NCBI GenBank assembly: GCA_000827205.1
Contig: KN832562.1
Span: 1,324,300-1,365,902 of the forward strand
Direction of reading: 5' to 3'
Origin: Plicaturopsis crispa FD-325 SS-3
Taxonomy: Eukaryota > Basidiomycota > Agaricomycetes > Amylocorticiales > Amylocorticiaceae
DNA: 41,603 nt
Made by a program: the position numbers and the translations under genes. Each line of letters starts with the position of its first letter. Positions within the stretch are counted from its first letter, which is position 1. The notes beneath the pieces are model-generated. The model was not told the origin of the DNA. It worked only from the letters and a program-made list of their open reading frames with translations, and ran no database searches. Below, one piece after another: positions 27,969 to 31,505 of the stretch.

Positions 27969-30900
27969 TCAGTGCGTGTTATTCCACAATGATCTGACCA
28001 CAAACTTCGACGAATCCGCCGCTACCGACGATGTCGCCGCATCCAACACGAACTTTACTGTCGAACACGATCCGTGAGCCGCGTGGAAAGTAGACGGTGA
28101 AAAATGAACTTACATGTACGGTCCATGCCAGGGACGAGGTAGAACCCATTCGACGGCAAACCGGTGATACTGTCGACAAAATACCCGATAGTCCCGTTCG
28201 GATGGTCGAGCCACGTCCACGGCGCAACGCCGCCCCGCGCAGAGAGCGTGAAGCTAAGATCGTCTGCCGCCTTCATGGTGATTTGGGGATCTAACAAGGT
28301 GGCATTGGCCAGGGAAGTCGGCGTGAACTACAAGCATGTCAGGAACTAGGCGAGGTGGAACAAGGATACTAAACGCACATATTGCTCGTTTACCATCGTC
28401 CCGCCCTTCGCTTTTGCGGTGACGTTCAGGTGCAGCCACACCTCGCTCGCATTCTTCCCCGAAGGAAGGATAGTGCTAAGGCCAGACGCTTCGTAGATCG
28501 CAGAATTATTGAGCGCCGGAACGGTGAACCCGTGCTTGCTGCTATTCAACGGCGTCCCCTTCCAGTCGTACCACGTCAGCTGCGCCACTCCCTGCGTCGC
28601 CACCAGCTCGTCTGACGACACCAGCACCTCTAGCGTCTCGTTATTCGGGTACCAGAACGGGCTAATCACCACCGGCTGGTACGCGCGCGCGATCCCGTAC
28701 TGCATCACCTTCCAGCGCCCGGAGTACTCGATCGCGGACCAGCTGACGCCCTGCCAGATGTCGTTGAGCTGCCACACGATGCTGCCGAGGTTGTGCTCGC
28801 CGCGCCCCGCGCCGCGGCGGTACCACGCGATCTGCGCGGTCGTCGTCATCGACTGGAATATCTGTGTGCTCCAGCACCACTGCGCGAAGGTGCGGTAGGA
28901 GTCGCTGGTGGAGGGCGTGGGTAGCCAGAGGGAGACGGCGTCCGTCATCTGCGACTGGCCCTGCCATGCGTTTGGGTTTGGGTACGTCAGGCCCCCGGCG
29001 GCGGGGTGGTGGTCTCGCGCTGCTACTGCGGTGGAGTTGAAGCTGAAGTCGCTAGGGTTCTCGAGGACGTCCGCCCAGCTGTATATTGAGGGCATCGAAT
29101 GAAATCTGGCGTGCAGAAGTCAGCATACACTTCGTGGGCTAGTGTATAGTCGTGACGAACCCGAATTCATTGACAAATCTGTGAGACGCGATCAGTCAAT
29201 GCGATGGTAAGAAGAGACATAATGCATACCGAGCTACTGGATATGAGCTGAGGTTGAACGCCTGCGTAGCGTCGTAGTTGTACCGCTCTTCCCTGGGAGA
29301 TAAGCACGCCGTCGACGGGGAGGCAAGGGCACGTACCGGCGTTCCCATAAAGCTCGCCTGGCGTGCCATTGTTGAACCGCAGCTCGTACGGGTCCAGGCT
29401 CAGCACGCCCTTCGTCGTCGAGCAGTCCGTGTACGCCACCTAAGGCCCCGAAAATTAGCATGCACCGAATGCGCAAGGAATCAAAACTCACTGAGTGTGT
29501 TTCCGACACGACGATATCGTGCAAGAAATCTCTGTACAGCGTCACGAACTACGAAAGGTCAGCACCCGCACACCACTCCGCCCCGCGGTCTCACTTACCT
29601 CATCGACCCAATGTTGCCCGTTCGGCACGAGGCCCGAATCATTCACATACAGCGCGATCGCCTCGTTCTCGTTTCCGCCCGCCCACTGCACATTGCTCGG
29701 GTGCCTGTTCACCCGTCGCACGTTCTGCCTTACCTCGGGCTCGATGGTCGCGAGGAGCCAGTCGTTCACAGGGTACAGCGCATCCGCAAAGATGAACTCG
29801 CTCCACGCAAGGATGCCCAGCTCGTCGCACAGACTATAAAAGTCATACCCGCCCCCCGCGGTGCCCGCGTCCGATGGCTGGTATATCCCCCCGCCCCACA
29901 CGCGCACCTACAGCCACGCGCGTGAGTAACGATAATCAACGACGGCTCGCGCGGGAGGCACGCACCATGTTCTGCCCGGACTTCTGGGCACTCTCGAGCA
30001 CCCAGCGCACCTTCCCCGGGTCGACGCGCGCGTAGAACGGGTCGAACGGGATCACGTTCGTGCCCTTCGTGTAGAACGCGACGCCGTTCACCTCGAAATG
30101 CCACTGGTCGCCCGGCGTGATCCCGCGCGCCGCCACCTCGTCCTTTCTGTACGGCGTCTGCACGAGCGACACCGTGCGGAAGCCCGTCGTTGTGTCGAAC
30201 TTCACCACGGCGCCTTGGGAGAGGGAGAGCGTGGTGGTGAGGTTGTACAGCTTTGGCGCGCCGAGGGTGTGTGGCCACCACCGCTCCTTCACTTTATTGT
30301 CCGCAAACGTCCATTCCACGCTCACCCGCTGCGTGCTGGGGGCGATGGGCGGGATCGCGAACTGCGTGCTCAGGCCGAGCTCGGGGAAGGCGAGCGCGAG
30401 CTTCGGGGCGCGCCACGTCGAAGCAGAGCGCACGTCGAACGTGACATTGACGACCCAGTCCGCAGACTCGACGGGCGGGCGCGCGAAGGACTGCCCGCGC
30501 TTGTAAATCTCGAGCGAGAAGTCGTCGATGAATACGGGAGCGGGCGGGGTGGTGGTGGAGCTATGGGGAGGGGAGATGGGCGGCGTGGCAGTGTCGGATG
30601 GGGATGGGGATGAAGAAGAGGAGTTTGAGCCGGATATGGTGACGAGGTATGCGGCTTTGAATATGCCGCTTGGGACGAATGCTGGGCCCTGCGGGGTAAG
30701 GCATGTTAGCGTCAGAGCATGGACTAATGGCAGGGAGTTCAACTGACCCAATCCCACCCGAAATCTGAGGAGGTTTTCCGAATCCATTGACGGACGTCGG
30801 GATACTCAAACTGCAAGAACAATATCAGTCACAGTTGCAGATGTCAACACAAGATACTTACGGCGTCCAGAGGGTTCAAAGGGTCAGCTTCTGCGTCAGG

Positions 30901-31505
30901 CCGAGTTGTCACGTTCTTTCCGTAGGTCCAGGCCGACTCAAACACGACGGTCAAGTTATTGTCCCCTCCAGAAGGCGAAGCGAGGGCGGCAGACACGTCG
31001 AAAACGTGCTGCTGGAATTGATTGTTTACCCATGCGACTGGATGGCCAGCCAAAGTCTGGACGGAACGCGGTCAATGGGATTCGATGATAGCACGCGTCA
31101 ATATCGCGACGCACGATGTTAGCGACGGTGTCAAGCCCGTAGAACACCAAAAGAGTCTTGTCCGAGGAATTCTGCGCGTGTTTGCTGGTGAAGGGAGACA
31201 GGTCTGCGGTATACGTCCAGTCGTGATCGGTGATCCACCTCTGCTTGAAATCTACCGCAGAAACGACGCGTCGTGAGTCGTGTCCAGTGCTGAGCGGGTT
31301 CGTGCTTACCGTTAATGCCTCGTAATGGGTCCTCGATCACGCCTGCACGCCATAGATCCAGGTGCGTTTGGGAGGGCACGCGTCCGGGCACGGTGATGGA
31401 GCCGTCTTCGTTCCGCAGCGTCCACTGCAGGTCTGAGAGCGAAAACGTGCTCGCCAGCCCGAGCACCGGGAGAGAGCAGACGAACAATGCACGGGGGAGC
31501 AGCAT
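27969..31505 (-). CDS. Secreted beta-mannosidase (glycoside hydrolase family 2)
   Basis: Thirteen exons, complement of 27969-28057, 28114-28327, 28379-29105, 29161-29178, 29230-29287, 29337-29439, 29492-29548, 29599-29907, 29966-30688, 30748-30810, 30862-31056, 31115-31251 and 31310-31505; 962 residues. A signal peptide (MLLPRALFVCSLPVLGLAS) is followed by the sugar-binding jelly-roll domain (DLQWTLRNEDGSITVPGRVP, WDWGPAFVPSGIF), an immunoglobulin-like domain and the TIM barrel. The barrel shows MVRVWGGGIY, CDELGILAWSEF, the acid/base Glu518 in WAGGNENE and the nucleophile Glu618 in FVNEFGFHSMPS; then LNDIWQG and C-terminal beta domains. Family enzymes remove terminal beta-mannose from mannan and manno-oligosaccharides. 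Oddities are a Ser/Pro/Thr low-complexity insertion (about residues 215-250) and an 18-nt exon that encodes the nucleophile itself. Many N-glycosylation sites (NNS, NAT, NNT) agree with secretion. Confidence 0.93.

Follow-up and report, generated by a model that had tools for sequence, protein, structure and literature searches.

Animal neuronal micro-exons are short, often frame-neutral, regulated cassette exons. Micro-exons are also found in fungi, and in the basidiomycete Phanerochaete chrysosporium, where introns of 45-55 bp are frequent, 41 P450 genes carry exons of 29 bp or less (PMC1184071), and in CYP5141A1 an exon of 8 nt lies in the AGHETT motif of the I-helix (PMC12940212). The authors of the P450 work hold that micro-exons promote alternative splicing, as reportedly observed for CYP63 (PMC1184071, excerpt). 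The Fusarium gene CYP621A has a one-nucleotide exon that is spliced accurately under several growth conditions according to SRA data (PMC12940212). The nearest precedent for regulation is Xlr2, where a 20-nt micro-exon is used at low glucose in Trichoderma virens according to RNA-seq, and one intron is retained in a sugar-dependent manner in T. reesei; in the excerpted text, the authors find no reads joining the exons beside the micro-exon (PMC11121469). Further cases of conditional splicing are the light-dependent completion of splicing of corA in a mushroom and the substrate-dependent splicing of a Phanerochaete exocellobiohydrolase gene cited in the discussion of the same paper (PMC9603100, excerpt).

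Skipped exons made up 3% of alternative splicing events in 23 informative fungi (PMC3925392), 12 of 193 events in Ustilago maydis (PMC2219887) and 1% of coding-region events in Schizophyllum commune (PMC5034255), as far as the available parts of these surveys go. Failed splice-site recognition in fungi mostly results in intron retention (PMC3925392, PMC2219887), the commonest event at 61% (PMC3925392). On the other side, Cryptococcus neoformans is said to show numerous skipped exons (PMC2219887) and a looser junction analysis of S. commune counted 1,527 cases of skipping within coding regions (PMC5034255).

Here we describe an 18-nt exon in a beta-mannosidase gene of Plicaturopsis crispa FD-325 SS-3, located in a stretch of 41,603 nucleotides of contig KN832562.1 (hereafter the window). 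As in the Phanerochaete P450 genes, a tiny exon falls in a strictly conserved enzyme motif, albeit in another enzyme family and with a frame-neutral length, which the 8 nt of CYP5141A1 are not (PMC12940212, PMC1184071). CYP621A likewise needs an ultra-short exon to complete a conserved motif, although there it is a single nucleotide in a P450 of an ascomycete (PMC12940212). With Xlr2 the locus shares a fungal micro-exon encoding essential residues in the context of carbohydrate breakdown; however, Xlr2 is a transcription factor controlling that process, its micro-exon is not frame-neutral and its conditional inclusion is known from RNA-seq, whereas the exon described here is known from genomic sequence alone (PMC11121469, excerpt). 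A limited literature search found no report of a micro-exon in a beta-mannosidase gene among the matches listed, which does not prove absence; in the available text of PMC3990503 and PMC4014442, micro-exons appear solely as a read-mapping setting.

Gene model and catalytic residues

The spliced model places the gene and the features around its active site as follows (window coordinates):

27969..31505, minus strand: GH2 beta-mannosidase gene, 13 exons, 962 aa
29599..29907, minus strand: exon 6, 309 nt, carrying the acid/base Glu518 (GGNENE)
29288..29336, minus strand: intron 8, 49 nt, GTACGT...CCCAGGGAAG
29230..29287, minus strand: exon 9, 58 nt, upstream of the micro-exon, of equal length in both paralogs
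29179..29229, minus strand: intron 9, 51 nt, GTATGC...CACAG, phase 2, same position in both paralogs
29161..29178, minus strand: exon 10 (micro-exon), 18 nt, ATTTGTCAATGAATTCGG, encoding (R)FVNEFG with the predicted nucleophile Glu618
29106..29160, minus strand: intron 10, 55 nt, GTTCGT...GCCAG, phase 2, same position in both paralogs
28379..29105, minus strand: exon 11, 727 nt, following the micro-exon

The predicted product matches Pfam PF22666 (163.7 bits), PF17786 (39.1) and PF17753 (52.4), all above the cut-off, and thus shows the domain series of a GH2 exo-beta-mannosidase with a sugar-binding N domain, Mannosidase_ig and Ig_mannosidase. For the barrel no Pfam match was reported, yet this region aligns with PDB 4cvu, the best solved relative (E=4.5e-170). 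We take 4cvu/4uoj to be the beta-mannosidase of Trichoderma harzianum; it is a near full-length homologue in which RFVNEFGFHSMPS aligns with RFANEFGFISMPS, the comparison being one of protein sequence and not of gene structure. The N-terminus likely holds a signal peptide, MLLPRALFVCSLPVLGLAS, judged by eye. The Pfam, PDB and same-genome searches were run on a first gene model of 965 aa, while alignments with 4cvu, 2je8 and the bacterial relatives used the revised model of 962 aa. The first model, with a 40-nt intron 8 (donor GTGCCC) and the nucleophile at Glu621, was dropped, the paralogs fixing intron 8 at 29336-29288.

Exon 9 ends with CG at 29230 and exon 11 starts with A at 29105, so that both terminal codons of the micro-exon are split and the junctions read CG/A TTT GTC AAT GAA TTC GG/A, or R-FVNEFG. 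Coding exons of about 30 nt or less with consensus splice sites count as micro-exons; this one has 18 nt and GT-AG introns on both sides. In the alignment, RFVNEFGFHSMP of the product matches RFANEFGFISMP of 4cvu and RFMSEFGFQSFP of the 2je8 chain, and by manual count Glu518 and Glu618 face positions 439 and 532 of the latter. We take 2je8 to be the Bacteroides enzyme and its catalytic residues to be those numbered E462 and E555, from which the aligned positions are both 23 lower. Neither E555 nor E462 is named in the accessible text of PMC8790593. Thirty-three bacterial relatives were fetched and the 31 with a reading frame of >600 residues were used; each catalytic column holds Glu in 30 of these 31, and in the lone exception, L038, the wrong frame seems to have been chosen. 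By alignment, Glu618 is the predicted nucleophile and Glu518 the predicted acid/base, in keeping with a GH2 exo-beta-mannosidase, where the acid/base Glu sits in an N-E motif and the nucleophile Glu closes strand beta-7; such an enzyme would hydrolyse beta-mannosides. A preliminary description of the locus had given the same coordinates, size and split codons for the micro-exon, and all were reproduced by the spliced model on the minus strand. Its residue number, Glu618, was likewise correct once intron 8 had been set from the paralogs, and its proposal that the nucleophile depends on a single 18-nt exon is borne out by the alignment of Glu618 with the nucleophiles of solved beta-mannosidases.

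Conservation of the micro-exon in paralogs

The search of the same genome yielded two paralogs (A and B), both on contig C3, and each carries an 18-nt exon at the same place, in phase 2/2 and with GT-AG sites (ATTCGTCAATGAATTCGG and GTTTGTCAATGAATTCGG). The three proteins are 73-79% identical, the last part of paralog B being mis-modelled, and spliced alignment recovers 12 of the 12 intron positions of the window gene in paralog A and securely 11 of 12 in paralog B. Internal exon lengths of 137, 195, 63, 57, 103, 58 and 18 nt are identical across all three genes. A degenerate pattern of the exon with its flanking AG and GT (YAGRTTYGTNAAYGARTTYGGGT) has three matches in the 33.2-Mb genome, one per gene, compared with none for the reversed control pattern. 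Given the same place and phase in both paralogs and the three matches against zero, the micro-exon is not a chance AG-N18-GT. Since phase-2 introns flank the hexapeptide in all three genes, the arrangement appears as old as their common ancestor, and most simply the exon structure would predate the duplications that gave rise to them.

Exon 12 of paralog B is broken by an insertion of ~470 bp (L029, about 690-1150 in + coordinates) with 70-nt inverted arms near its ends that are 74% complementary; the insertion is MITE-like and disrupts the C-terminal domain. Because the spliced alignment is wrong behind the insertion, intron 12 of paralog B was left out of the splice-site score set, although it was kept in the paralog comparison tables.

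Intron length, splice-site strength and sequence constraint

The introns of the three genes span 46-67 nt (n=35 scored), or 40-70 nt when a fourth GH2 gene, L030, is added (n=51, some L030 introns being doubtful); the script's length limits of 90 nt for the paralogs and 110 nt for L030 allowed nothing longer in those models, while the window gene was modelled by eye with no limit. Skipping of the micro-exon would need a single intron of 124 nt in the window gene, and of 147 and 129 nt in the paralogs.

Splice sites were scored leave-one-gene-out from a small training set in which some L030 introns are doubtful (1743-1782, of 40 nt, and 2213-2270), and the scores are read as ranks only. On this scale, none of the 12 donors of the window gene scores lower than the 5' splice site of exon 10 (the intron 10 donor GTTCGT, 5.5 bits), whose counterparts in the paralogs come 5th from the bottom of 12 and 8th from the bottom of 11. 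The intron 10 acceptor is 4th weakest of 12 in the window gene. The 3' splice site of exon 10 (the intron 9 acceptor) comes 7th weakest of 12 and, in the paralogs, 8th of 12 and 10th of 11.

The lowest acceptor score of the gene, -0.3 bits (lowest of 12, again as a rank), belongs to the AAG of intron 8, and a CAG 5 nt before it competes. Were that CAG paired with a second donor, 4 nt downstream of the first, the reading frame would be kept and the product lengthened by three residues, perhaps a likelier alternative isoform than one with exon 10 skipped.

Introns 9 and 10 are not unusually alike between the paralogs, ranking 4th and 5th of 12 in similarity by z-score averaged over the three pairs (~1.7 and 1.5), within the range of the remaining introns (-0.9 to 2.8). 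No 5- or 6-mer inside introns 9 and 10 is common to all three genes, and the same holds for 5-mers in six of nine other introns. As a test this has little power: 8 of 11 introns lack any shared 5-mer, and short degenerate elements would escape it. The likeness to animal neuronal micro-exons extends to shortness and frame neutrality, whereas those are regulated cassettes and here, by the same weak test, no conserved regulatory element was found. Frame neutrality itself is no sign of regulation, as 6 of the 11 internal exons of the window gene, the micro-exon included, have a length that is a multiple of three. Synonymous constraint was considered as a possible trace of a splicing enhancer: the three genes use the same codons at 616-619, but this applies to 14 of 197 comparable four-codon windows (the present one counted), and among 600 conserved degenerate codons 210 do not differ between the genes. 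Glu618 is encoded by GAA in every paralog, GAA being the minority Glu codon in each; of 24 conserved Glu columns, no other has GAA throughout. This use of GAA might hint at a splicing enhancer, a hint that is weak on its own.

Tiny exons in a fourth GH2 gene

L030, a GH2 gene on contig C1 of the same genome, contains exons of 9, 15 and 20 nt. It was modelled with four of the 31 bacterial proteins as guides:

L030 1427-1446, plus strand: 20-nt exon, found with 4 of 4 guide proteins
L030 2735-2743, plus strand: 9-nt exon, found with 4 of 4 guide proteins
L030 3047-3061, plus strand: 15-nt exon encoding A-G-N-N-E of the acid/base motif, found with 2 of 4 guides (L037, L041)
L030 3391-3469, plus strand: 79-nt exon carrying the nucleophile

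The 15-nt exon is preceded by a GC-AG intron of 70 nt (GCAAGT...CTCAG); with the other two guides, L044 and L040, the alignment ran on through the GC donor and the acid/base Glu was missing from the model. Together with the exon shared by the window gene and its paralogs, these exons indicate that tiny exons in catalytic motifs recur in this GH2 family in this genome. The intron that follows the nucleophile motif in L030 has the phase of intron 10 in the window gene but is shifted downstream by one codon, an offset consistent with either intron sliding or independent gain.

Probable constitutive inclusion and its alternatives

Structure and conservation at the sequence level suggest that the 18-nt exon is most likely a conserved micro-exon, included constitutively, in a fungal GH2 beta-mannosidase gene dense in introns. 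Introns 9 and 10 would each be recognised singly by intron definition and removed separately, by which the micro-exon would be included by default, and purifying selection on the active-site strand may fix both exon length and peptide. Mis-splicing would then lead mainly to intron retention with premature stops and seldom to skipping, and any protein made from a skipped transcript, deprived of barrel strand beta-7, would probably be unable to fold. Several observations sit less comfortably with constitutive inclusion, namely the weakest donor of the window gene at intron 10, the opinion of the Phanerochaete P450 authors on micro-exons (PMC1184071), the numerous skipped exons attributed to Cryptococcus neoformans (PMC2219887), the looser S. 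commune count (PMC5034255) and the carbon-source-dependent use of the Xlr2 micro-exon (PMC11121469).

Among the alternatives, the one that survives best, though unlikely, is that poor removal of intron 9 or 10 sets enzyme output by introducing a premature stop near the active site, probably acting via nonsense-mediated decay. Were intron 9 or 10 retained, translation would stop after residue 624 or 626, short of the full 962, and the weak intron 10 donor, the prevalence of retention among fungal events (PMC3925392) and the precedents of corA (PMC9603100) and of the sugar-dependently retained Xlr2 intron of T. reesei (PMC11121469), as excerpted, fit such a gate. However, the weak donor is not common to the paralogs, and while a premature stop arises in five of six cases (two introns in three genes), the exception is intron 10 of paralog B, whose retention gives no stop.

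A broader proposal draws on L030: the catalytic Glu pair would have reached frame-neutral micro-exons in separate gene lineages, the nucleophile in the 18-nt exon of the three paralogs and the acid/base in the 15-nt exon of L030, and splicing could gate activity post-transcriptionally. We regard this as very improbable.

Very improbable, too, in our view is regulated skipping, in which exon 9 would be joined to exon 11 to give a secreted, inactive protein of 956 aa serving as a decoy or an activity off-switch. The preliminary description had considered such a switch plausible. Its structural premise stands, as the nucleophile does reside in one 18-nt exon whose removal deletes six residues in frame (...ARFHSMP...); the switch itself is poorly supported, given the 124-nt intron it needs (up to 147 nt in paralog A or B) against the 46-67 nt of these genes. 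In-frame loss of the nucleophile, the glucose-dependent use of the Xlr2 micro-exon (PMC11121469), a documented skipped exon in A. niger rtnA and the weakest donor of the gene at intron 10 would suit skipping, but the paralogs do not share that donor weakness, introns 9 and 10 show no conserved element by the weak test above, and skipping accounts for few of the alternative splicing events counted in fungi (PMC3925392, PMC2219887, PMC5034255). Even in Xlr2, the excerpted account has no reads joining the flanking exons (PMC11121469).

The predicted fold also speaks against a stable skipped product. In a confident AlphaFold model of the bacterial homologue L037 (mean pLDDT 90.3, 16 sequences), the barrel region has strands at 320-325, 354-357, 378-382, 417-421, 468-470, 491-494, 515-518 and 603-606, which we read in the model as beta-1 to beta-8. 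Residues F514-G519, the match of the micro-exon residues, contain the whole seventh strand (515-518). The skipped form had been expected to be full-length, secreted and catalytically dead; because the six residues hold all of beta-7, the deleted protein would, judging from the bacterial model, probably misfold and fail to fold or be secreted.

Finally, there is a negligible probability that a faulty gene model or a pseudogene accounts for the hexapeptide: so tiny an exon is of a kind frequently mis-annotated, but without it three genes would lose their nucleophile, its conservation in the three paralogs is exact, the pattern matches three times against zero for the control, and the nucleophile column is occupied by Glu in 30 of 31 bacterial relatives.

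Implications

Regulated skipping, if it occurred, would be a new way of turning an enzyme off; the evidence does not lead there, and the locus looks like ordinary gene architecture, not an on/off switch. Its practical consequence lies in annotation, where automatic gene finders can drop such an exon, which would leave annotated or cloned enzymes without their nucleophile.
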